From assembly GCA_003252375.1 (NCBI GenBank), contig QKEJ01000178.1:1-34374 (forward strand): a stretch of DNA of 34,374 nt, given 5' to 3'. A program made the translations under genes and the position numbers. How positions within the stretch are numbered: position 1 is the first letter of the stretch; each line of letters starts with the position of its first letter. The stretch comes from Halodesulfovibrio sp. (GTDB taxonomy: Bacteria > Desulfobacterota > Desulfovibrionia > Desulfovibrionales > Desulfovibrionaceae). Positions 5,805-33,936 of this stretch are shown here, piece by piece. The notes under the pieces were generated by a model. The model did not search any database and was not told the origin of the DNA. It saw only the letters and a program-made list of their open reading frames with translations.

Positions 5805-7967
5805 TTATCGCTCGCCCTGCTCCTTCATGCGCAGGACAAGCTCGCCGAGCACCCTGGCCTGTTCCGCAAGTTCCACCACCGCGGTGGCGGACTGCTGCAT
5901 GGAGCTGCTTGTCTCCATGGAGATCCGGTTGATGCCGCCGATACTGTCAGTGATTTCCTCACTGGCGGCCGACTGTTCTTCCGACGCGGTGGCAATGGAC
6001 ACAACCTGCGTCGTGTTGGATTCAGAAAAGGCCACGATCTCCTTCAGGGATTCTCCTGACTGGTTCACGAGCCCCGTCGTCGTTTCGATAATGGTCACGG
6101 CTTCATCCACATTATGGATGTTCTGCCGCGTGCCCTCCTGAATACCCTTGATCGCCGCTCCCACTTGGGTGGTGGCGCTCATGGTTTTTTCCGCCAGCTT
6201 GCGCACCTCGTCCGCCACAACGGCAAAGCCACGTCCTGCTTCTCCGGCACGGGCCGCCTCGATGGCGGCATTGAGGGCCAGCAGGTTGGTCTGGTCGGCA
6301 ATATCGGTGATCACCACCATGACCTGTCCGATTCCGTCGACCTTGGCGCCCAGAAGGGACATGTCTTCCTTGATGGCCATGGCGGACTGCTGCACCCGGG
6401 ATATCTGCGACACGACATCGGAAACCATGCTGGCTCCCTGCAGCGCCTTCTGCTTGGTCGATTCCGCCGTTTCCGAAGCCGTGGCAGCACTCTGGGCCAC
6501 CTCCAGCACGCTGGCGTTCATCTGCTCCATGGCGGTGGCGACTTCGGCCACCCGGTTGGTCTGCGCCTCGGCGCCACGACTTGCCTGCTCAACCTGCGCC
6601 GCCAGCTGCTCGGATGCCGTGGACACGACATGCACCACGTCCTCAAGCTGCAGGGCGGCTGAAAGCATGCTTTCATTCTTCACCTGCGCATCCTTCTGCA
6701 ACCGCTCAGCCTCTTCCAGAGCCTCTCTGGCCTTCACGGTCTGCTCCTGCGCTTCCGCGGCCAGCTGCTCGGACCGGGCGATATTTTCCACCAGCGAGGC
6801 GACCATTTCGCCAAACGTGCTGTGCAGGGTGCGCAGTTCGCCCCCGAAAAGACTGGCATCGCTCTTCGCCTGATAATTGCCGGAAGCGATCTCCTTGGCA
6901 TACTCCACCATCAGCTCAACAGGCCGGGACAGCTGACGGGAAATGAGCAGGATGGCCCCAAGCGTCACCAGGGTCGCGATCACGCACAGGATGATGAGAA
7001 AACGGGTCAGCGCCGTGGAATCCGCAAGAATCTCTTCCACGGGCGCCTTGATGGCGAGGTACCATGTAGTATCAGTCCCATCGAAATGGATGGGCATGAA
7101 GCTGTATACGGCTACCCTGTCGTCCTGCGTGGACATTTGCTCAAAGGTAATTGCCTTCCCATGCTGCATGGCGCCGCGAACATCACGGCGCTCCTTCCAT
7201 CCGGCAAGCGAAAAGAGCTTCTTGCCCACCAGATCCTCATTCTGATGCACAACAAACTGGCCATCACCGGTCAGAAGAAAGGCGTTCCCGGTTTCGTGCA
7301 CACGGATGGAGAGAATCTCTTCCTTGAGCGTGCCAAGATCAAAGTCCGTGCCCACTATGCCCACAAACTCGCCGTTGACGAGGATGGGGATGCACAGGCT
7401 GACAAGGGAATGCACCGTACCGGAGAAATCCCAATCATAGGGTGCCGTAATATAGGCCTTTCGGGTCTTCCTGGGAGTGCTGTAATAGTCCTCGCCATCC
7501 GGATTGCCCAGCGAGTCCACGGTAATGCTGCCGCCCGCCCGGTTCACGTTCGGCGTAAAACGGCCGGTGGCATCATGTCCCGGAGTGCCTGCATAGACCG
7601 CGTCGTTGCCGTCATAGGCGTCAGGCTCCCATCCGGTGTAGATGCCAAGCGCCGATTCGTTGTTTCGCAGCATGCCCTTCAGCATGGCCACAACCTTATC
7701 CCGGTCCATGGGCGCCCCAGTGGTCTGCACCGAGCTCATGCCGGCAGAAAGAGACTGCAGGGGGGCAAGGCTCTTCTCAAAGAAATTCTGCACATGCAGG
7801 CTCTCCTTGCCGGCAAGGGCCTCCAGTTCAAGCTGGGCGATATGCCTGATGGCCTGAGAGCTGCGGTCGGCCGCTATGGAAACGATGGTGACGAGTATTA
7901 TGGTCAGGACCAGGGCAACCGGCAGGACGATCTTGTACGCCATGCGCAGGTTTCGATACCATTTCAT
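5805..7967 (-). CDS. methyl-accepting chemotaxis protein with cache sensor
   Basis: This 720-aa chemoreceptor has a membrane segment at about residues 12-33, a large periplasmic region (about 35-318) of the double-cache type, a second membrane segment (about 321-343), a HAMP linker, and a cytoplasmic signalling helix pair. The sensor shows cache-like patterns such as [13 protein letters not shown] and [17 protein letters not shown]. The hairpin tip with [20 protein letters not shown] and [16 protein letters not shown] is the invariant CheA/CheW contact. The protein ends [14 protein letters not shown], with no C-terminal pentapeptide for CheR tethering. The ligand is unknown; cache domains often bind small organic acids or amino acids. 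It is monocistronic, with a possible sigma-54 promoter upstream. Confidence 0.93.
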
Positions 7968-14121: not shown

Positions 14122-14859
14122 CTACTTGCCAACCTTGCGCTCAAGGACAAACTCGACCCGTCTGTTCTTGGCACGGTTTTCTTCACTTGTATTGGGTAAC
14201 AGGGGGTCTAAATCACCAAGTCCGGTGGCTGTCAACCTGTTTGCTTCAATTCCCGACCGCACGAAGAAGCGCAGCGTATTCACCGCGCGCAGTGCGGAAA
14301 TCTCCCAATTATCCTTGAAACGACTGCCCGTAACGGGCGGCGTGTCGTCAGTATAACCCTTAATATTGATAGTCTGGGTCTTATTTTTGAGGAAAAAATC
14401 TCGCAGCACATTCAGGGCGGCGATCCCCTGCGGGTTCAATTCCACCTCCCCCTTGTCGAAGAGCACGCCGGAGGGAACCTTGAGCGTAATGGTTCCCTCG
14501 TCGAACACGGCGCCGATCATGCCCTCCACGCCCTTCTGGTTCATGAAGGTGCGCACGTCGGAAAAAACCTTGCGCTGCGATTCGATAAGCTGCTTCTGCA
14601 GGCGCACGGTATCGAGAATGGCCGCATCATCATGCCGAACAGTCGTTGTAAGCAAGTCCTTATCTTTGCCGCCAAAAACCTGGCGCACGGTAAGAAAGGA
14701 GTCGGTAAACCGCTTCTGGTCAATAACCGACATGGAAAACAGAAGAATGAAGAACACGAGCAACAAGGTGGTGAGGTCCGCAAAGGTCATCAACCATTCC
14801 GCGGTTTCCTCGTCCTCCAGATCGCTGCCGCCCATGCCGCTGGTAGGATCATCTTGCAC
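14122..14859 (-). CDS. motB: flagellar stator protein MotB/PomB type
   Basis: This 245-aa protein has a short cytoplasmic start, a single membrane helix (about residues 22-43) with the ion-conducting Asp28 in FADLTTLLLVFFILLFSMS, a plug and linker, and a C-terminal OmpA-like peptidoglycan-binding domain. That domain (about 110-240) shows INIKGYTDDTPP, NWEISALRAVNTLRFFV and NRAKNRRVEFVL. The membrane motif is closer to PomB, which uses sodium, than to E. coli MotB, but ion choice cannot be settled from this. Its start codon lies inside the end of motA, an 11-base overlap that implies translational coupling. Together with MotA it forms the torque-generating stator anchored to the cell wall. Confidence 0.94.
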   Translation of the reverse strand: MQDDPTSGMGGSDLEDEETAEWLMTFADLTTLLLVFFILLFSMSVIDQKRFTDSFLTVRQVFGGKDKDLLTTTVRHDDAAILDTVRLQKQLIESQRKVFSDVRTFMNQKGVEGMIGAVFDEGTITLKVPSGVLFDKGEVELNPQGIAALNVLRDFFLKNKTQTINIKGYTDDTPPVTGSRFKDNWEISALRAVNTLRFFVRSGIEANRLTATGLGDLDPLLPNTSEENRAKNRRVEFVLERKVGK

Positions 14860-15604
14860 TTTTCCGCTCCTGAGCCGGCAGGAACGAACTCAGCTTTTCG
14901 TACACCAGCCGGGGGTTGTTGTTCTCAAGGATCGATTTGGCGCCTTCAAAGATGATAAAGAGGTGCACCTCTTCCTGCAGGGTACGGGCCTTCAGCTTGC
15001 CCGCAATGGGCAGGAAAAGCAGGTTGGCGAGGATGGCACCGTAAAAGGTGGTGATAAGGGCAACGGCCATGGCCGGGCCGATACGGCTGGGGTCGTCAAG
15101 CTTGGAGAGCATCTGCACCAGACCGATCAGCGTGCCGATCATGCCGAAGGCAGGAGCAAAGGCCCCCAGACGGTTGAAGACCGCGATGGAAACGGCATGG
15201 CGCCGTTTCATGGTGGCAATTTCGATCATCACGGTGTCCCGGATGAGGGCCGGATCGGCGTTATCCGCAATGAGCTGACAGGCTTTCTTGAGCAGAGCGT
15301 TTTCCGTCTGGATGTTCTCGAGGGCCACGAGGCCTTCACGACGGCTGATTTCCGCAATGCGGACCATGGTGTTGACCACTTCCTGCGGCTTGACGCGTCG
15401 TGCGGCAAACACCTGGATGCCCCCGGCGAAGGCATGAATGACCTCTTCCAGAGGAAAGGTGACGCTGATGGCGGCAGCCGTGCCGCCAAGGACGATCATC
15501 ATGCTGGGAACATGGACAAAATCGCCGACAGATCCCCCCATGAAAATAGCGCCGATGACAAGAGCAAACCCGAGTATGATCCCTAATAGTGTTGCAATAT
15601 CCAT
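14849..15604 (-). CDS. motA: flagellar stator protein MotA/PomA type
   Basis: This 251-aa protein has the four membrane helices of MotA. Two are near the N-terminus (about residues 3-22 and 33-50). Two are near the middle (about 150-195, with GAFAPAFGMIGTLIGLVQML, then AVALITTFYGAILANLLFLP). The cytoplasmic loop carries the charged residues expected to contact FliG. It is first in the series and precedes motB with an 11-base overlap. The ribosome site is weak (AGG eleven bases upstream). The leader, divergent from the phosphorylase gene, contains a 14-bp palindrome and a run of seven C. No sigma-28 or sigma-54 site is evident upstream. Confidence 0.95.
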   Translation of the reverse strand: MDIATLLGIILGFALVIGAIFMGGSVGDFVHVPSMMIVLGGTAAAISVTFPLEEVIHAFAGGIQVFAARRVKPQEVVNTMVRIAEISRREGLVALENIQTENALLKKACQLIADNADPALIRDTVMIEIATMKRRHAVSIAVFNRLGAFAPAFGMIGTLIGLVQMLSKLDDPSRIGPAMAVALITTFYGAILANLLFLPIAGKLKARTLQEEVHLFIIFEGAKSILENNNPRLVYEKLSSFLPAQERKSAR

Positions 15605-21529: not shown

Positions 21530-21564
21530 CTTTGCAGACCTGCGGGACGCGGAAAAACGGATGC

Positions 21565-21606
21565 AAAACGAGACGCTCCGGGGCCTGATGCCGCGGAGCG
21601 TCTCGT
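21565..21606 (-). terminator. terminator of the FlgO-like operon
   Basis: ACGAGACGCTCCG (21568-21580) and CGGAGCGTCTCGT (21594-21606) form a perfect 13-bp stem with a 13-base loop. On the minus strand TTTTGCAT follows. It lies 22 bases past the stop of the last gene of the operon. Confidence 0.85.
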
Positions 21607-21628: not shown

Positions 21629-22285
21629 CTACGGGAGCCTGGTGCCCACCGAAGGCAGTATGCCCGTAAATCGCGTTTGAGAGGCCTGCATGCCCTTTCC
21701 TGTCGCCCCGTTTCCGGCAACAAGCATGCGCATCTCGGAATTCAGCGGAATGGTCTGACTGGACATGGCAAGCACCTCGTTGGTGGCGGCATGCAGCAGA
21801 CGCACGTTAAATCGGATGTTCTTCATGGTCTGCGAATAGGTGCTGACCATGATGAGCGCACTCCGGATATTTTCATTTCCCAGCAGGGTCGAACGGCGGG
21901 TCAGCAGGGTTTCCCCCTGGCCCGGATCAAAGAGGACGGTCCGTCCCTTGCGAATTTCCTGCACCTTGTAGCCCGACTGCACGAACCACAGGGAGAGTTC
22001 TTCCCCCATCTGGCGGGCCAACGGGCTGGAGGCCTCAAGGTTGTTCAGATCCACCGGAGTCGTCACGATAAGCGAGTACCCCTTGGCAGGCCCCTCGAGC
22101 AGATGCAACCGCTCCACCAGCTGACCATCAAGCATCTCCCCCATCTTGAAGGCGGCCGAGGCGAGACTGACCTGCGGTGCGGGTGCAGGCTCATCCTTCC
22201 AGAAATCGAATATTCCCGCAGAAGCCGCCATGGGCAGAAGCAGGCAGACCAGCATGGTCATGATTCTGATGATGATGTGCAACAT
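21629..22285 (-). CDS. FlgO-like secreted protein, shorter paralogue
   Basis: This 218-aa protein has a signal peptide (about residues 1-23, ending AASA-G) and one FlgO-like domain. In Vibrio FlgO is an outer-membrane protein needed for a stable flagellum. By eye the domain matches that of the first gene in the operon: a strand after a hydrophobic segment, then SPLARQMGEELSLWFVQSGY and KVQEIR, then FNVRLLHAATNEVLAMSS and QTIPLNSEMRMLV. It therefore looks like an internal duplicate with the N-terminal extension removed. AAGGAG lies eight bases before ATG 22285. It is the third gene of a three-gene operon that begins with a flagellar-type promoter. Location in the outer membrane or periplasm is inferred. 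Confidence 0.8.
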   Translation of the reverse strand: MLHIIIRIMTMLVCLLLPMAASAGIFDFWKDEPAPAPQVSLASAAFKMGEMLDGQLVERLHLLEGPAKGYSLIVTTPVDLNNLEASSPLARQMGEELSLWFVQSGYKVQEIRKGRTVLFDPGQGETLLTRRSTLLGNENIRSALIMVSTYSQTMKNIRFNVRLLHAATNEVLAMSSQTIPLNSEMRMLVAGNGATGKGMQASQTRFTGILPSVGTRLP

Positions 22286-22301
22286 GGGTCTTCTCCTTCG
22301 G

Positions 22302-22616
22302 CTACCGCAGGGTCTTTATCAGCCTGTCCACGGTCTGCAGTTCGGTCACCAGCGTATCACGCATGGCTTCCTCGCGGGCCGAGGCAAGGGCGAGCAGGTA
22401 GTGTTCCCGGGCCAGTTCATACCGCCCCTGCGCCACGTACTGTCTGCCGATGTAGAAATTCTGCAAAGCGTTGCCGCTGTAAGGCGCGGCAACAACATCC
22501 ATGGGAGTCGGCGGGGGCGGAGGATCCTTGGGCAGAAGCTCGCTCATGGTGGCGCACCCGCCCATGAGGGCGGCGGCAAGGATGGAGGCCAGAACGGTTC
22601 GTATACGTGTCTGCAT
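22302..22616 (-). CDS. small lipoprotein with a TPR-like helical pair
   Basis: This 104-aa protein starts with a lipoprotein signal (about residues 1-20) ending LMGGC, so Cys21 should be lipidated. Alanine at the next position favours the outer membrane. A proline-rich spacer (PKDPPPPPTP) follows. The remainder looks like one tetratricopeptide-type helical pair (NFYIGRQYVAQGRYELAREH, then YLLALASAREEAM) and a closing helix. A G-rich ribosome site (AGGGGGC) precedes ATG 22616. It sits nine bases after the larger FlgO-like gene and 16 bases before the smaller one. Vibrio pairs FlgO with the lipoprotein FlgP, but I see no sequence similarity to FlgP; the parallel is one of arrangement only. Confidence 0.8.
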   Translation of the reverse strand: MQTRIRTVLASILAAALMGGCATMSELLPKDPPPPPTPMDVVAAPYSGNALQNFYIGRQYVAQGRYELAREHYLLALASAREEAMRDTLVTELQTVDRLIKTLR

Positions 22617-22625
22617 GGCTGCCCC

Positions 22626-23510
22626 CTAGTGAAGATCCGCGCCCAGATCCAGGGCGGTAAGATCGACTGCGCGGGTCATGGTCCCGAAGTCCTGCATGCC
22701 CACATAGGTTTCTTCCAGCCGCTTGCCGGAGCTGGCGAGCATGCGTCTGGAGACCTCAGACTGGGGAAAGACCAGCTGAGCCGTACGCAGCACCATGCCA
22801 TCCGCAGCGCGGAACATGCGCACGTTCACAAAGATGTTCTGAAGATCGGCGTAATAGGTGCCTGCAACAAACATGGTATTGGGGCTGTTGGCGAACATGC
22901 GCTGCTGCTGGCGCGAAAGCAGGAATTCGCCTTCCCCCCGACGCAGGGCAAGCTCGCCCTCAGCACGATATTCCCGCACGGGAAAGCCGCGCTGGTTGAA
23001 CTCGTAGAACAGCGCCTCGGCGACATACCGCCCGAAGGACGAACTCTCTTCAAAGTCATCCTGGTTTACCAGACTCACAGGCATGGCCGTCACACCCTGC
23101 AGGGCACGACGGTCAAGTCCGCTGAGCAGCTGGTCCGCCAGCTCGCGCATCTTCAGTTTGATTTCCCGTGCGTTCACATGCGTGGGATCGGGCTCGGTGC
23201 GCTGTCCTTCGCGCCACACAATCCCTCCCTTGCCGTCAGGCAACATCATGCCGCTATCCACGGAATCCATGCGCCGCATGGGAACGGTGGCGCCATCCAG
23301 CGTCATCATTTCCTGCGACTGGGTCACCCGCATGGCCGTTGCGGCATCGAAGACCTCAACAAGCCCGGTGTACTCCATGGCGTTCATTACCGGCCCCTGC
23401 ACGGGCTGCACGCCCGGAGGTGCCGCATCCGGGCCGGCGGCCCGTACGGGAATGGAAGCGGCAGCCACAAGAAGCAGCACCGCACATATGCGTATCATGG
23501 TCCTAGACAT
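22626..23510 (-). CDS. FlgO-like secreted protein, longer paralogue
   Basis: This 294-aa protein has a signal peptide (about residues 1-27, ending VRA-A). An extension of about 80 residues (to about 110) is not obviously part of FlgO. A FlgO-like domain follows, with MPVSLVNQDDFEESSSFGRY and VAEALFYEFNQRGFPVREYR, then FVNVRMFRAADGMVLRTAQL. GGAGG stands six bases before ATG 23510, so that start was chosen over one 17 codons upstream. It is first in the operon, about 68 bases downstream of the expected transcription start of a sigma-28-like promoter. A flagellar envelope role is inferred from the FlgO similarity and the promoter. Confidence 0.8.
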   Translation of the reverse strand: MSRTMIRICAVLLLVAAASIPVRAAGPDAAPPGVQPVQGPVMNAMEYTGLVEVFDAATAMRVTQSQEMMTLDGATVPMRRMDSVDSGMMLPDGKGGIVWREGQRTEPDPTHVNAREIKLKMRELADQLLSGLDRRALQGVTAMPVSLVNQDDFEESSSFGRYVAEALFYEFNQRGFPVREYRAEGELALRRGEGEFLLSRQQQRMFANSPNTMFVAGTYYADLQNIFVNVRMFRAADGMVLRTAQLVFPQSEVSRRMLASSGKRLEETYVGMQDFGTMTRAVDLTALDLGADLH

Positions 23511-23585
23511 CCCTGTCCTCCCTGAGCCGGCGCAGGCTGCGTCCTTGCTGCCCATCGACATCCGGCTGTTTCCTTCTGCTTTTGC

Positions 23586-23612
23586 CTATCGGTTTCTCCG
23601 GAAAATACTTAA
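23586..23612 (-). promoter_or_regulatory. sigma-28 (FliA) type promoter of the FlgO-like operon
   Basis: On the minus strand the sequence is TTAAGTAT, eleven bases, then ACCGATAG. The sigma-28 consensus is TAAAGTTT, eleven bases, then GCCGATAA. Each element matches at six of eight positions, the CCGATA core is intact and the spacing is exact. It lies between the galE terminator and the operon, with no other gene between, so it should drive the three FlgO-like operon genes. Confidence 0.65.
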
Positions 23613-23663: not shown

Positions 23664-23691
23664 AAAAAGGGGGAGGCCGTAAGCCTCCCCC
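23664..23691 (-). terminator. galE: galE terminator
   Basis: GGGGGAGGC (23669-23677) and GCCTCCCCC (23683-23691) form a 9-bp stem with a five-base loop. On the minus strand TTTTTC follows. It lies 31 bases past the galE stop and separates galE from the flagellar-type promoter. Confidence 0.85.
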
Positions 23692-23721
23692 CGGATATCA
23701 ATAGTACGCGCGTTTGCCCGT

Positions 23722-24744: not shown

Positions 24745-24893
24745 GGCTTCCCCCTCGCTTTCTGTATGAAAATTCGCCCCATGCCAGCCGCAGTTGCGGC
24801 AACGGCATTGTTGCAGTATTCTTTTGGACTGGGTATGCAATAGCATAGGCTACCGCAATTGCAAACAGATTCATACTGAGAGGAGAGTTGCGC

Positions 24894-26009
24894 ATGCACT
24901 TCGTGTCACCAGGACACCCCGGCACAGCCCCGGGGCACTGCACCGTTTCCCATGCCCTGACCATCCTCCTTCTGGCAGTGCTCCTGCATCTCTGTCTGCC
25001 GCCGCAGACCATGGCGGAGGCACCGTCCACAGCCGCCCTCCAGCGCATGGCGGACCACCTGACGGACACGGGCATCAAGTTCGACCAGATTCCCTCTCTT
25101 ACCAAGCCCCACTACCTTCCCGTGGCCGATGCCGCGCTCAGCATGGACGGCGACGAACAGGTCTTCGTCGCCCGCTTTCCGAGCGGCGTTCGCATCTATC
25201 CGCAGCGCATCATGGTCTACCATGAAATCGTCAACGAGGACCTGGACGGCATGCGCGTCAGCATTACCTACAGCCCCCTCACGGGCGCCCTGGTGGGCTA
25301 CAGGGGGCGAGCCGGACGCTTTGACACCAGCTTCGGGGTATCCGGGAACCTGCTTAACGCCAACACGGTACTCTTTGACCGGGCCACGGGCAGCCTCTGG
25401 CCGCAGCTCTTCGGCATAGCCATAAGCGGCCCCCTGCGCGGCGCGCAACTGGACCGTTTCCCGCTCATATGGACCACGTGGGAGAGGGCTGCGCGCACCT
25501 ACCCCAAGGGCATGGTGCTCTCTCGTTCAACCGGCTTCAAGCGCCGCTACGGCACGGACCCCTACGGCGGATATTCGAATAGGAACTCCTACTACAATAC
25601 CCAGCAGATCACCTATCCCGTACAGAACCGCGACGACAGACTCCCTCCCAAGGAACGAATCATGGCTCTTGAACTGGAAGGACTGCACTACGCTCTGCCG
25701 TACGCCCTGGTAAAGCGGGATGACGTGGTCAACTTTTCCATGGGCATCACCCCCATGGTCGCCGTATGGGACAGGCGACTGCAGACCGTGCGCGTCTATG
25801 AACGCATTGTTGCGGGAAAGACAGTGAATTTCCTGTCACAGGACGGCAAGCTGCTGGACGGAGCCACACGATCGGAATGGTCCTATGACGGCGAAGCCCT
25901 GTTCGGCATCCTGCGCGGTTCGGCGCTTACCCCGGTCGCCGCCATGGACTCCATGTGGTTTGCCTGGGTCGCGTTCTACCCCGACACGGAGATCATTCCG
26001 CGTCCGTAA
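24894..26009 (+). CDS. DUF3179 domain secreted protein
   Basis: This 371-aa protein has a long N-terminal signal region (about residues 1-45, with a hydrophobic core TILLLAVLLHLCLPP), so it should be exported. The body matches the DUF3179 layout: YPQRIMVYHEIVNEDLDGMR, then VSITYSPLTGALVGYRG, then a later GTDPYGGY segment. Family members commonly have YCPLC or YCPLT in the central strand. Here it is YSPLT, with serine in place of cysteine. ATG 24894 has AGGAGA seven bases upstream. The family function is unknown. The gene faces a flavoprotein gene and overlaps its end by 17 bases. Confidence 0.82.
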   Translation: MHFVSPGHPGTAPGHCTVSHALTILLLAVLLHLCLPPQTMAEAPSTAALQRMADHLTDTGIKFDQIPSLTKPHYLPVADAALSMDGDEQVFVARFPSGVRIYPQRIMVYHEIVNEDLDGMRVSITYSPLTGALVGYRGRAGRFDTSFGVSGNLLNANTVLFDRATGSLWPQLFGIAISGPLRGAQLDRFPLIWTTWERAARTYPKGMVLSRSTGFKRRYGTDPYGGYSNRNSYYNTQQITYPVQNRDDRLPPKERIMALELEGLHYALPYALVKRDDVVNFSMGITPMVAVWDRRLQTVRVYERIVAGKTVNFLSQDGKLLDGATRSEWSYDGEALFGILRGSALTPVAAMDSMWFAWVAFYPDTEIIPRP

Positions 26010-30060: not shown

Positions 30061-33000
30061 ATGCAGCAACACACGCCCACCTTAGGGGACCTGCTCGCCA
30101 CGTTGCGACGGTCGCACGACATGGCCGTCAAAGGGCCAGTCGCCCTGAAAGCCTTGCTCAACGAGGTTGTCGCTCTCTGCGCAGCTCATGAACAGGCCCA
30201 GGGCTACCCTCCGCCGGAGACCGTACCGCTGGCGCTGGCCGTGCGCGACATTGCTGCATCAGACTCTTCCGGCACCATTCTGGGGGCCTGCATCGAGTTC
30301 TGGCTCTCCATGCCCGTCTCCTGCTGGAACCACGCCATACGCCAGATCAACGGCACCACGCTTCCCTTCAATATCTGCGAGCCGGTCCTGAACGCCCTTC
30401 CCGCCCACTACAGGCTGCTGCTTGCGCACGAGACGCTGCGCGGCGGCATGGAGGAAGATACGCCGCTTGGCAAGTGGAGCCTGACCCTGCTGGAGCACGG
30501 AAGCAACTGGCCCTTCGAGGAGCTGCTTCTCTTTCTGGAACACCTGTTCCACGCCAAGCGCATCCTCAACCTGCAGGTGGCCGAACGATTCCGGCAGATG
30601 AAGCTGGCGCAGCAGTGCACGGCGCTGGCAGACGCCCCTCCGCACCCGGAGATGGGCATGCGTGCGGCCATGGCCCTGTGCATCCTTGAACAGCCCCCCT
30701 CCGCCAACACGTTGGCCAAGGCCCGGGAATCCGACTCGGTGGACTACATTGCCACCCTGCTGCAGGCAGCGCGCCACACCCCGGCCCAGAATATTCCCCC
30801 GGACCTGACCAAGGCGCTGCTGCAGCTTGCCCAGCACCCGCACCCCATGGTGCGCAAGGATGCCCTGTTCACCATGGTCGTGCTGAACGTGCCCAACCTC
30901 ACCACGATTTTCCTGCTGGTCCTGCGCAAATTCACCAAGGAGCGCAACTACTTCTATCCGGCCCTGCTCTATCTTTCGCCCAGCCAGTTCTCCGAATTCC
31001 TGAGCATGATGCCCCCGAAACTCAAGCAGGACGCCCTGGCCTATCTGCTGCACCTGTTCATGACCTGTGGCAGGGATCTGGCCTCACATTCCATGACCAG
31101 CGCATCGCATATTCTGAAGACGCTCCCCAAGGAGACCGCAGGGCACATCAAGAGCTTCATGCTTTCCTGCCGCCGCAAGCGATATCTGGAACCGCTCGAA
31201 AGCAGCATCAGAACGCCAAGGCCGCACATCCAGAAGGCGCAGACCGAAGAAAGCTCGCTCTTTGCCCGCAAGAAGACCAGCCCGGAGACGCTCTTTGCTC
31301 AGGCCCTGTCCTCACATTCCCGCATGGTCAAGCTGGACCTGGCCCATGTGGTGGTCTCCGACGCCTTGCTGGAAAACCGGGAACTGCAGGACGTGGACCT
31401 GTCCAATTCCTCCCTGACAAAACTGACGTTCAAGAACTGCACTCTCAAACAGGTAAACCTGCAAGGGGCCACCCTCAGCGACGTCCACTTCACGGAGTGC
31501 CGTTTCGATCAATGCGACCTTTCGGCGGCCATGCTGGAGTCGTGCTCCTTCACGGACTGCACCTTCACCAGGCTTGATGCGTCGGTGGCGGACATCTACC
31601 GTACCTCTTTCACCAACATCACAGTCTCGCGCTCCCTGTTCACCGCGGCCCATCTGCACACCTCGTCCCTGCACGAAGCCCACATGGACGAAGCGGTCCT
31701 GTGGGAGACGGGGTTCACCCGCGTGGAGATTTCCGCCACCCATTTCCAGCAGACCGACTTCACCCGCGCGGAGTTCTTTGGCTGCACCCTGCTCGGCTGC
31801 ACATTCGGCGCCTCCACCTTCTGCCAGACCAGTTTCGAGCGCTCCCGGATGGAGCACACCTCCGCCTCGGCGGGCAACTACTACCGTTGCAACTTCCGGC
31901 AAACCATCAGCGACGAACCGCATCTGCTCATGTCGGCGGAGCACCAGCGCTTCAACGAACTGATGGAGCTGGCCATTTCGCTGCCGCCCTCCAGCGTGCC
32001 CAAGTGGTGTCACACCGTACCGGCGCTGGCCGAACACGTACTCACCCAGGTGCTGCTGTTCCGCAACGTCATCCGCTGCCGCTACCGGTTCCTGCGCCAG
32101 AACAACCAGCGCATCACCCTGACGCACAAGACCCTGGATACCCAGCGTTCGGATTTCTTCACGCTTCTGCCGCTGCTCATCGAGACCGATCTCTTTGAAC
32201 GCCAGTTCACCCCGAGCCGGAAGTGGCCCATATTCAACATTGCCGGTTACGCGCCCACCTACCGGACCCTGCAGGTGGCCCGCACCATCTTCGGTGCCGA
32301 CATAACGCTCCCCGCCGAGCCCGCGCCCCGGACCGTGGATGCCGTGTATACCATCGGCAGCGTCGGCTCCATCGCCATGACCAGCGATTCGGACATCGAC
32401 TACTGGCTGAGCATAGACCCCAAAGATTTCACCCCCCGCGAAGCTGCGGCCCTGACCGAAAAGCTTGAGCACATCTCCGGATGGGCCGAGGAGCAATTCG
32501 GGCTGGAAACAACCTTCTTCGTGATGAACCGTACGGCCATCATCGAGAACGACTTCGGCATATCCGACAAGGAGAGCTCCGGCTCCGCACAGGCCCTGCT
32601 GCTCAAGGAGGAATTCTACCGCACGGCCCTCAAGGTATGCGGGCGCGACCTTGCATGGTGGGCCATGCCTCCGCACGTGGACCGGGCCACCCACAATTCG
32701 CTGCTCAAACAGTACAGCGCCCTGCCCTTCAATGCCGGAGACAGCTTCGTGGACTTCGGCATCGTGGAGGCCATCCCGCCGGAAGAATATTTCGGGGCCG
32801 CCCTGTGGCAGATCGTGAAGGCCTTCAAGAACCCGTTCAAGTCGGTCATGAAGCTGGGCATTCTGGAAGCGTACATCGCGGCGCAGGACGACATCCTGCT
32901 CTGCGAGACCATCAAGGAGCACATTCTCAGCGGCAACAGGCTGCTGCTGAAGACAGACCCGTACGTCACGCTCATGCGCACCCTGCAGGACCACTACCAC

Positions 33001-33936
33001 CGGTCGGGCAACAAGGATGCCGCCATGCTCCTGCAGACCGCCTTTCTGGCCAAGCTGCACGACACCTCCAAGGCGGGCGGCAACAGGCTGCTGTACACCC
33101 TGCGCAAGCGGGCCATCAACGAGCTGTACGGCACGGGCACGCTGCTCAAGCAACAGGATTTTACACAGGCCAAGGTGCTGGGGGACAAGCTCAATGCCTT
33201 TTTCCTCAAGTCGTACGCCACGCTGCAGCAGCGCCTGAGTGAGCAGCAGATTACCGCACGCATTTCCCCGGAAGATGTCACCCGGCTCGGGCGCAAGATC
33301 TTCGCCGCCTTTGCCCCGCAGGAGGACAAGGTGGCCCGGCTGCCCTTCGTCAACAGCATGGGGCGGACCATCAGGGAACTGATGTTCAAGAAGGACACCA
33401 CGCCCGGCAAGCGCAAGAAGTGGATCGCCATGGGCCTGCCGCAGGGCGTGGCCTCGCGCCGCGAAGCCTTTGTGGAGATCAAGACCGAGAGCGATCCGGT
33501 CCGGCTCATGGCCTGGCTGGTCGCCAACGGACTCTACTATTCGGGCATGCATGTGGAGGTGGACATGACCATGTCCCCCATCGCTGCGCAGGACGTGGTC
33601 TCCCTGCTGCAGGGGCTGCACGACTTCTTCCCCAAGACGCTGCTGGAAACGGACACCGAGCAGACCCTGCGCGGAGAACGGGTGCTGCGGGCCTACTGCG
33701 TGCTCAATTTCACCCTGCCCCGGGACACCAGCGTTCAGAAGCAGGCATCCGTGGCCTACGTGACCAACTGGGGAGAAATGTTCTGCAGCGCGCTGGATGT
33801 GGACGACCCGGTGCTGCTGACCAAATCGCTCCGCAGTTTCCTGAACAGGGCGCTCTCCCGCCGGGTGACCGCAGATACCGAGATGACCTACCTTATCCCT
33901 TCCAAGTCCCGCACGCCGCGCGTCGCCATTGCCTGA
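30061..33936 (+). CDS. class I adenylate cyclase with pentapeptide-repeat region
   Basis: This 1291-aa protein joins a large N-terminal part to a class I (enterobacterial CyaA-type) adenylate cyclase, which makes cAMP from ATP. Residues 1-420 are mostly helical and possibly HEAT-like (for example QLAQHPHPMVRKDALFTMVV). Residues 421-620 are about forty pentapeptide-type repeats (LSNSSLTKL, TFKNCTLKQVNLQGATL and so on), which fold as a right-handed beta helix. The cyclase part follows: G766-S767 and D778, D780 in YTIGSVGSIAMTSDSDIDYW form the nucleotidyltransferase active site, and ESSGSAQALLLKEEFYRTAL continues the family pattern. E. coli CyaA has 848 residues, so this protein is much longer. 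It is divergent from the aminotransferase. The repeats may sense or bind a partner; this is inference. Confidence 0.88.
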   Translation: MQQHTPTLGDLLATLRRSHDMAVKGPVALKALLNEVVALCAAHEQAQGYPPPETVPLALAVRDIAASDSSGTILGACIEFWLSMPVSCWNHAIRQINGTTLPFNICEPVLNALPAHYRLLLAHETLRGGMEEDTPLGKWSLTLLEHGSNWPFEELLLFLEHLFHAKRILNLQVAERFRQMKLAQQCTALADAPPHPEMGMRAAMALCILEQPPSANTLAKARESDSVDYIATLLQAARHTPAQNIPPDLTKALLQLAQHPHPMVRKDALFTMVVLNVPNLTTIFLLVLRKFTKERNYFYPALLYLSPSQFSEFLSMMPPKLKQDALAYLLHLFMTCGRDLASHSMTSASHILKTLPKETAGHIKSFMLSCRRKRYLEPLESSIRTPRPHIQKAQTEESSLFARKKTSPETLFAQALSSHSRMVKLDLAHVVVSDALLENRELQDVDLSNSSLTKLTFKNCTLKQVNLQGATLSDVHFTECRFDQCDLSAAMLESCSFTDCTFTRLDASVADIYRTSFTNITVSRSLFTAAHLHTSSLHEAHMDEAVLWETGFTRVEISATHFQQTDFTRAEFFGCTLLGCTFGASTFCQTSFERSRMEHTSASAGNYYRCNFRQTISDEPHLLMSAEHQRFNELMELAISLPPSSVPKWCHTVPALAEHVLTQVLLFRNVIRCRYRFLRQNNQRITLTHKTLDTQRSDFFTLLPLLIETDLFERQFTPSRKWPIFNIAGYAPTYRTLQVARTIFGADITLPAEPAPRTVDAVYTIGSVGSIAMTSDSDIDYWLSIDPKDFTPREAAALTEKLEHISGWAEEQFGLETTFFVMNRTAIIENDFGISDKESSGSAQALLLKEEFYRTALKVCGRDLAWWAMPPHVDRATHNSLLKQYSALPFNAGDSFVDFGIVEAIPPEEYFGAALWQIVKAFKNPFKSVMKLGILEAYIAAQDDILLCETIKEHILSGNRLLLKTDPYVTLMRTLQDHYHRSGNKDAAMLLQTAFLAKLHDTSKAGGNRLLYTLRKRAINELYGTGTLLKQQDFTQAKVLGDKLNAFFLKSYATLQQRLSEQQITARISPEDVTRLGRKIFAAFAPQEDKVARLPFVNSMGRTIRELMFKKDTTPGKRKKWIAMGLPQGVASRREAFVEIKTESDPVRLMAWLVANGLYYSGMHVEVDMTMSPIAAQDVVSLLQGLHDFFPKTLLETDTEQTLRGERVLRAYCVLNFTLPRDTSVQKQASVAYVTNWGEMFCSALDVDDPVLLTKSLRSFLNRALSRRVTADTEMTYLIPSKSRTPRVAIA

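Follow-up and report, generated by a model that had tools for sequence, protein, structure and literature searches.

Two exported FlgO-domain proteins (A and C) and a small lipoprotein (B) are encoded by three consecutive genes of Halodesulfovibrio sp., a member of the Desulfovibrionaceae. Judging from the sequence, this trio is probably a late (sigma-28) flagellar operon whose products form an accessory ring or disk of the basal body in association with the outer membrane. The trio lies in a 34,374-nt stretch of DNA, here called the window, which was analyzed at its full length (contig QKEJ01000178.1 of assembly GCA_003252375.1). Protein B and the trio are new here, while the FlgO pair itself has already been published for Arcobacter.

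Outer-membrane rings determine the scaffolding of the stators and the torque of the motor, and to our knowledge the parts of such rings are known for few phyla. According to the accessible part of a 2018 BLASTP survey (PMC5758724), the known accessory proteins, FlgO among them, were all without matches in delta-proteobacteria, whereas our profile searches place FlgO in 123 of 149 Desulfovibrionaceae genomes, often together with a small lipoprotein. FlgO and a lipoprotein of no named family thus offer defined genes to aim at in imaging and deletion studies. The literature searched, with subscription papers and most preprints outside its scope, contained no paper joining FlgO and Desulfovibrio, no Desulfovibrio motor structure recognizable by title, no imaged motor ring in this group, and no description of B.

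Organization of the locus

All three genes are on the minus strand, with gaps of 9 nt between A and B and 16 nt between B and C. Gene A (positions 22626 to 23510 of the window) encodes the first FlgO paralog, an exported protein of 294 aa; the assignment is based on the Pfam FlgO domain, the alignment of homologs, and a ribosome-binding site, with the signal peptide recognized by eye. Gene B (22302 to 22616) encodes the 104-aa lipoprotein, which has a single TPR-like hairpin and ends in a conserved Arg. The second paralog, an exported FlgO-domain protein of 218 aa, is encoded by gene C (21629 to 22285) and was likewise assigned with Pfam and a signal peptide read by eye. The preliminary description had started gene A at 23561. 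We replaced this start, which appears to be too early, with position 23510 (MSRTMIR..., 294 aa) as the most likely one, because AGGGAGGA directly precedes the ATG at 23510 and because the homologs of A have a common signal peptide that begins further in than 23561.

The neighbors of the trio in the window are typA and galE. Terminator-like hairpins, both on the minus strand, are found downstream of C (21564 to 21580) and between galE and the trio promoter (23668 to 23692); each is weak when taken alone, and 3 such sites occur in the region versus 2.0 expected from shuffles. The stator genes motB and motA are present at positions 14122 to 15604, about 6 kb from the trio, and a chemoreceptor gene is found at 5805 to 7967. 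The window also encodes a 1291-aa protein with pentapeptide repeats fused to a class I adenylate cyclase (30061 to 33936) and a DUF3179 protein (24888 to 26009; E value of 5.1e-96). The host assembly is incomplete (86.5% complete, 203 contigs).

A and C are FlgO-domain proteins

Both A and C exceeded the curated cutoff of the Pfam FlgO family (PF17680; 22.6 bits), with 104.3 bits (E value of 5.5e-30) for A and 90.6 bits (9.4e-26) for C. The same family was matched in 21/21 A and 21/21 C proteins of the aligned sets (E value of 0.001); NCBIfam models gave no match for A or C. A BLASTP comparison of C with A showed 28% identity over 169 aa (E value of 1e-14), and both motif pairs that had been quoted for the two proteins are present, so that the common FlgO-like core of two secreted proteins, originally noticed by eye, is borne out. 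The lipobox pattern was found in 0/21 A and 0/21 C proteins. Two A proteins (L042 and L054) have a Cys near the end of the signal peptide that was rejected by the pattern used.

Most A proteins end in a D-x-H tail, His being the last residue in 15/21, and the C proteins of the aligned set often have PSVxT-like ends. Together with the C terminus of B, these conserved tails suggest contacts. The AlphaFold2 model of A reached a low to fair confidence, with a mean pLDDT of 65. The best Foldseek matches of this model were LpoB, GNA1162, and PelC, none of them flagellar, and its structural neighborhood included LpoB, PelC, CsgG, and TolB, all at low TM-scores.

B is a small lipoprotein distinct from FlgP

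Protein B contains the lipobox LMGGC. The lipobox Cys is invariant in 21/21 aligned B proteins, 16 of which satisfy the strict lipobox pattern, and the last residue is Arg in all 21. A C-terminal Arg was also found in 34/34 B matches of a second set, some of whose genomes are common to the first. B had been described as a 104-aa lipoprotein with a TPR-like pair, and the lipobox agrees with the first part of this description. The second part did not hold, as the AlphaFold2 model of B (mean pLDDT of 87) consists of a single helical hairpin and a third helix, with pLDDT values mostly above 95 in these parts. The Pfam TPR models matched B only below the cutoff (best E value of 0.0034; best score of 18 bits versus 30.1); across the aligned homologs, TPR_2 was matched in 16/21 members at E values of up to 1, and the best TPR match had an E value of 1.4e-4. 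Foldseek with the B model returned generic helical-hairpin matches only, the best with an E value of 0.05.

LPP20 is the domain of FlgP. Since no LPP20 match was found in B or its 20 homologs at an E value of 1, the possibility that B is FlgP was ruled out, in agreement with the initial view that this lipoprotein is a different one. B matches no named family and appears to be undescribed.

Conservation of the trio

We surveyed two sets of loci for whether the three genes travel together. The first set comprised 20 loci that were picked for holding an FlgO pair, so the presence of B between the pair in 20/20 speaks for B and not for the pair. For the second set, 55 named loci were fetched with A as the query, and 37 of these (L093 to L129) were examined for the trio. 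Two FlgO frames were found in 34/37 (L100 and L117 have none, and L122 has one), and B lies between the FlgO pair in 33/34, partly in the same genomes as those of the first set. The single exception is a Desulfobulbaceae locus (L129), which has an A/C-type pair without B. Among the species found to have the trio is N. oxamicus (L096).

In the genome-wide searches, FlgO matches were taken as strong at E values of <1e-15, which excluded the weak matches of 27/123 family genomes and 46/81 phylum genomes and left 96 Desulfovibrionaceae genomes with strong FlgO. With up to 33 B candidates scored per genome, B was matched in at least 73 of the 149 Desulfovibrionaceae genomes. When one weak B match (G016) is set aside, 72/72 B genomes have strong FlgO, and 24 strong-FlgO genomes of the family have no B among the matches listed. 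Outside the Desulfovibrionaceae, where up to 20 candidates per genome were scored, a clear B-like gene was seen, among the matches listed, only in genome G289, where it lies between an FlgO pair.

A constant location of the trio within a flagellar gene cluster was ruled out, as the neighbors vary (typA-galE, lon, ispG, hemB, and znu; names were read by eye except for those confirmed by Pfam). Flagellar genes were recognized beside 2/20 trio loci of 8 kb each, namely flgM in L052 and fliS-fliD in L042, all three confirmed by Pfam. Just upstream of flgM in L052 is a gene for a 137-aa protein with no Pfam family above the cutoff (L052:2049-2462), and a look-alike, recognized by eye, precedes an FlgM-like gene in L056 (2424-2843). 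In L073, a locus of another family, BLAST revealed a run of genes, flgG to fliW, that lies upstream of the FlgO pair at a distance of about 2 kb, with three intervening frames on the opposite strand.

A predicted sigma-28-type promoter upstream of the trio

The sigma-28-type promoter that had been proposed for the operon was retained as a prediction. Sites were scored with a weighted Escherichia coli consensus, the weights being our own and the maximum being 23. The trio site, TTAAG-N15-CCGATAG (23586 to 23612, minus strand), reached 18.5 of 23 and is the best of its 310-nt stretch; 100 shuffles all scored lower (maximum of 18.0). Conserved TAAA-N-GCCGATAA-type sites with scores of at least 17 were found upstream of 18/21 trios versus 1/65 control starts, the latter coming from the same loci and possibly including frames that are not genes. 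First-order shuffles reached a score of 17 in 5% of the cases. FliA is encoded in the host genome (E value of 7.2e-77). The upstream regions of flagellin genes gave a mixed result as a positive control: scores were obtained for 13 of the 16 loci, in one case in the wrong frame, and 5/13 had a score of at least 19, with none between 16 and 19. Among the tandem FlgO pairs of other families, only 2/13 have a sigma-28-like site with a score of at least 17.

Association of the trio with flagella

The host genome encodes FlgH on contig C196, has flagellin-type matches, and carries motA and motB in the window. FlgH was found in 92/96 strong-FlgO genomes of the family. Among the 120 near-complete family genomes, FlgH is present in 78/79 genomes with strong FlgO versus 31/41 without it, and in 58/58 genomes with B versus 51/62 without it; Fisher tests of such co-occurrence ignore relatedness. 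Of all B genomes, 70/72 have FlgH, the two misses being 88% and 62% complete. When 18 named genomes were tested, FlgH was found in 6/6 with the trio. FlgH and strong FlgO are jointly lost at high completeness in three genera (g7, g40, and g42). A phylum-wide draw gave FlgH in 35/35 strong-FlgO genomes, 7 of them from Desulfovibrionaceae, versus 142/247 genomes overall. The trio is thus not widespread in genomes without flagella. As 31 near-complete family genomes carry FlgH without strong FlgO, the presence of a flagellum does not depend on the trio.

It might be argued that the work of the trio is done in the envelope but not in the motor, for example as a regulator at the outer membrane or a partner in export, in the manner of LpoB or PelC, and that its link with flagella is one of coexpression only. 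The fold class of A, common to LpoB, PelC, CsgG, and TolB, is consistent with such a role, and FlgO-domain genes do occur where an FlgH match is absent, in 4/8 Competibacter-type genomes tested, in the Desulfobulbaceae genome of L129 (completeness not given), and in the near-complete genome G026, which has strong FlgO. However, the gammaproteobacterial proteins sit on the branch of a third FlgO of the host (see below), and the only FlgO of G026 is a 184-aa lipoprotein whose gene follows that of a second lipoprotein; the surrounding 8 kb contain no B. The pair of L129 belongs to the A/C type, but B is missing there. The restriction of B to FlgH-containing genomes in the near-complete set and the presence of FlgO homologs in solved basal bodies also argue against an envelope role, which we consider unlikely.

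Comparison with known systems

A profile of A retrieved an "FlgO domain-containing protein" in PDB entries 9yfg, 9yh6, and 9yh7 (E value of 7.8e-22) and 9yds (8e-22), and a profile of C retrieved the FlgO-domain protein of the same entries (5e-13). The domain is homologous to those of A and C, but only one FlgO-domain sequence per entry is found among the matches. There are 174 FlgO-domain chains over 9yfg, 9yh6, and 9yh7 (58 each if evenly distributed) and 58 in 9yds. Searches with FlgH and FlgI also led to 9yfg, 9yh6, and 9yh7; these searches matched 156 chains in six entries, or 26 per entry for an even distribution, and 9yds was absent from their matches. Because the FlgO-domain chains occur beside FlgH and FlgI, a protein related to A and C is part of basal bodies of solved structure, and the different chain counts indicate that the copy number of the FlgO-domain protein is unlike that of the L and P rings.

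In Vibrio, the membrane anchor is carried by the lipoproteins FlgO and FlgP. The accessible part of PMC7990780 describes Vibrio FlgO as an outer-membrane lipoprotein. The trio resembles the Vibrio H-ring in its exported FlgO-domain proteins, in having a lipoprotein partner, and in its occurrence in flagellated genomes with the L-ring gene flgH. It differs in that there are two FlgO paralogs, both without the lipobox that would be expected of a lipoprotein such as Vibrio FlgO, and in that the partner is a TPR-like lipoprotein, with flgP and flgT not adjacent. Neither FlgP (LPP20) nor FlgT was found beside the trio. FlgT_C was over the cutoff in 0/149 Desulfovibrionaceae genomes and LPP20 in 6/149, four of these being in the genus of the host, the host included (29.9 bits). 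The LPP20 match of the host is a 300-aa exported protein encoded on contig C146 (L166:2465-3367) among TPR-like and lipoprotein frames, with no FlgO-like frame in the 5.7 kb around the gene. A distant FlgP-like role of this protein is conceivable.

The Vibrio proteins also bear on the view that the trio helps the flagellum cross the outer membrane during assembly and leaves no permanent ring. As far as the accessible part of PMC7990780 goes, Vibrio flgT, flgP, and flgO mutants have fewer external flagella, consistent with such a function in biogenesis, but the same proteins are also structural parts of the H-ring. Moreover, a late sigma-28 promoter would better fit a part that is added after hook completion. 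A role confined to biogenesis is, in our estimation, quite unlikely.

For Arcobacter, an operon encoding FlgO and FlgO' has been published (PMC9321776), and the motor has 5 to 6 concentric outer-membrane rings (PMC5758724), both according to the accessible parts of these papers. As judged by published description only, the Arcobacter operon is like the trio in having two FlgO paralogs in one likely operon and no FlgP. It is unlike the latter in that no lipoprotein is mentioned between FlgO and FlgO' in the accessible text of PMC9321776.

Tandem FlgO pairs are also present in other families, mostly of Thermodesulfobacteriota (L073, L076 to L080, L083 to L088, and L129). These differ from the trio in having no B match, except for L080, and in that the second FlgO is often a lipoprotein itself (7/13 by pattern). 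In some of these loci, a third gene comes after the FlgO pair and encodes a protein of about 205 to 260 aa that looks by eye like a lipoprotein or exported protein and has no FlgO-profile match (L073:11933-12706, L076:7557-8270, L078:3332-4000, L079:8644-9261, and L080:6140-6763). The product of this third gene may belong to the same structure as well.

Proposed function of the trio

In the favored reading of the trio as an operon for an accessory ring or disk, A and C would probably form at least one ring encircling the L/P ring. Ring formation is proposed because the solved structures contain numerous copies of a homologous protein next to FlgH and FlgI. B would then probably tether the ring to the outer membrane via its lipid and use its TPR-like hairpin to hold on to A or C. 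In the Desulfovibrionaceae, B is the sole lipobox bearer of the three proteins (by pattern, 16/21 for B and 0/21 for A and C each). The absence of a lipobox from A and C, together with its presence in 7/13 second FlgO proteins of other families, suggests that the anchor has moved to B, and this different small lipoprotein may thus replace the lipoproteins FlgO and FlgP of Vibrio. The idea of an exchanged anchor is weakened by L080, where the second FlgO keeps its own lipobox although a B-like gene is present.

It is tempting to imagine a motor disk of new make-up, in which alternating or concentric rings of the two FlgO paralogs are held by a dedicated TPR-hairpin lipoprotein, with contacts through the C-terminal Arg of B, the D-x-H tail of A, and the PSVxT-like tail of C. 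We put this arrangement forward tentatively, as a possibility that we would not yet expect to hold in full.

Phylogeny of the FlgO domains

In a midpoint-rooted tree of 77 FlgO domains, the first genes of the tandem pairs of other families fall on the side of A in 13/13 cases (support of 87/80), and the second genes group with C in 10/13 (95/69); both values are below what the tree program itself counts as strong support. As the branches of A and C are common to other families, A and C are, by this tree, two old FlgO types whose order is kept across families. A recent local duplication of FlgO was ruled out by the tree, in which the forks of the pair are below the mark for strong support. The preliminary description had noted a duplicated FlgO domain as a property of this operon; the pair is indeed homologous, but it is old and widespread and not special to the operon.

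That A and C are redundant ordinary FlgO copies and B is a bystander lipoprotein, as a third FlgO in the host genome might suggest, is very unlikely, given the separate old branches of A and C with their order kept across families, and a B that lies between the pair in 33/34 loci with its C-terminal Arg in 34/34. The third FlgO of the host belongs to a group of 18 sequences, comprising 13 single FlgO and 5 gammaproteobacterial FlgO proteins (support of 96/94), and by its position in the tree is of a more ordinary type. At L001:1159-3306 (contig C60), its gene comes after a gene for a 236-aa lipoprotein that has no Pfam match and a gene with an Hpt domain. In Competibacter-type Gammaproteobacteria, relatives of this 236-aa lipoprotein are encoded immediately upstream of FlgO. 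A sigma-28-like site with a score of at least 17 is present upstream in 6/7 third-FlgO loci, the host's own site having a score of 16.
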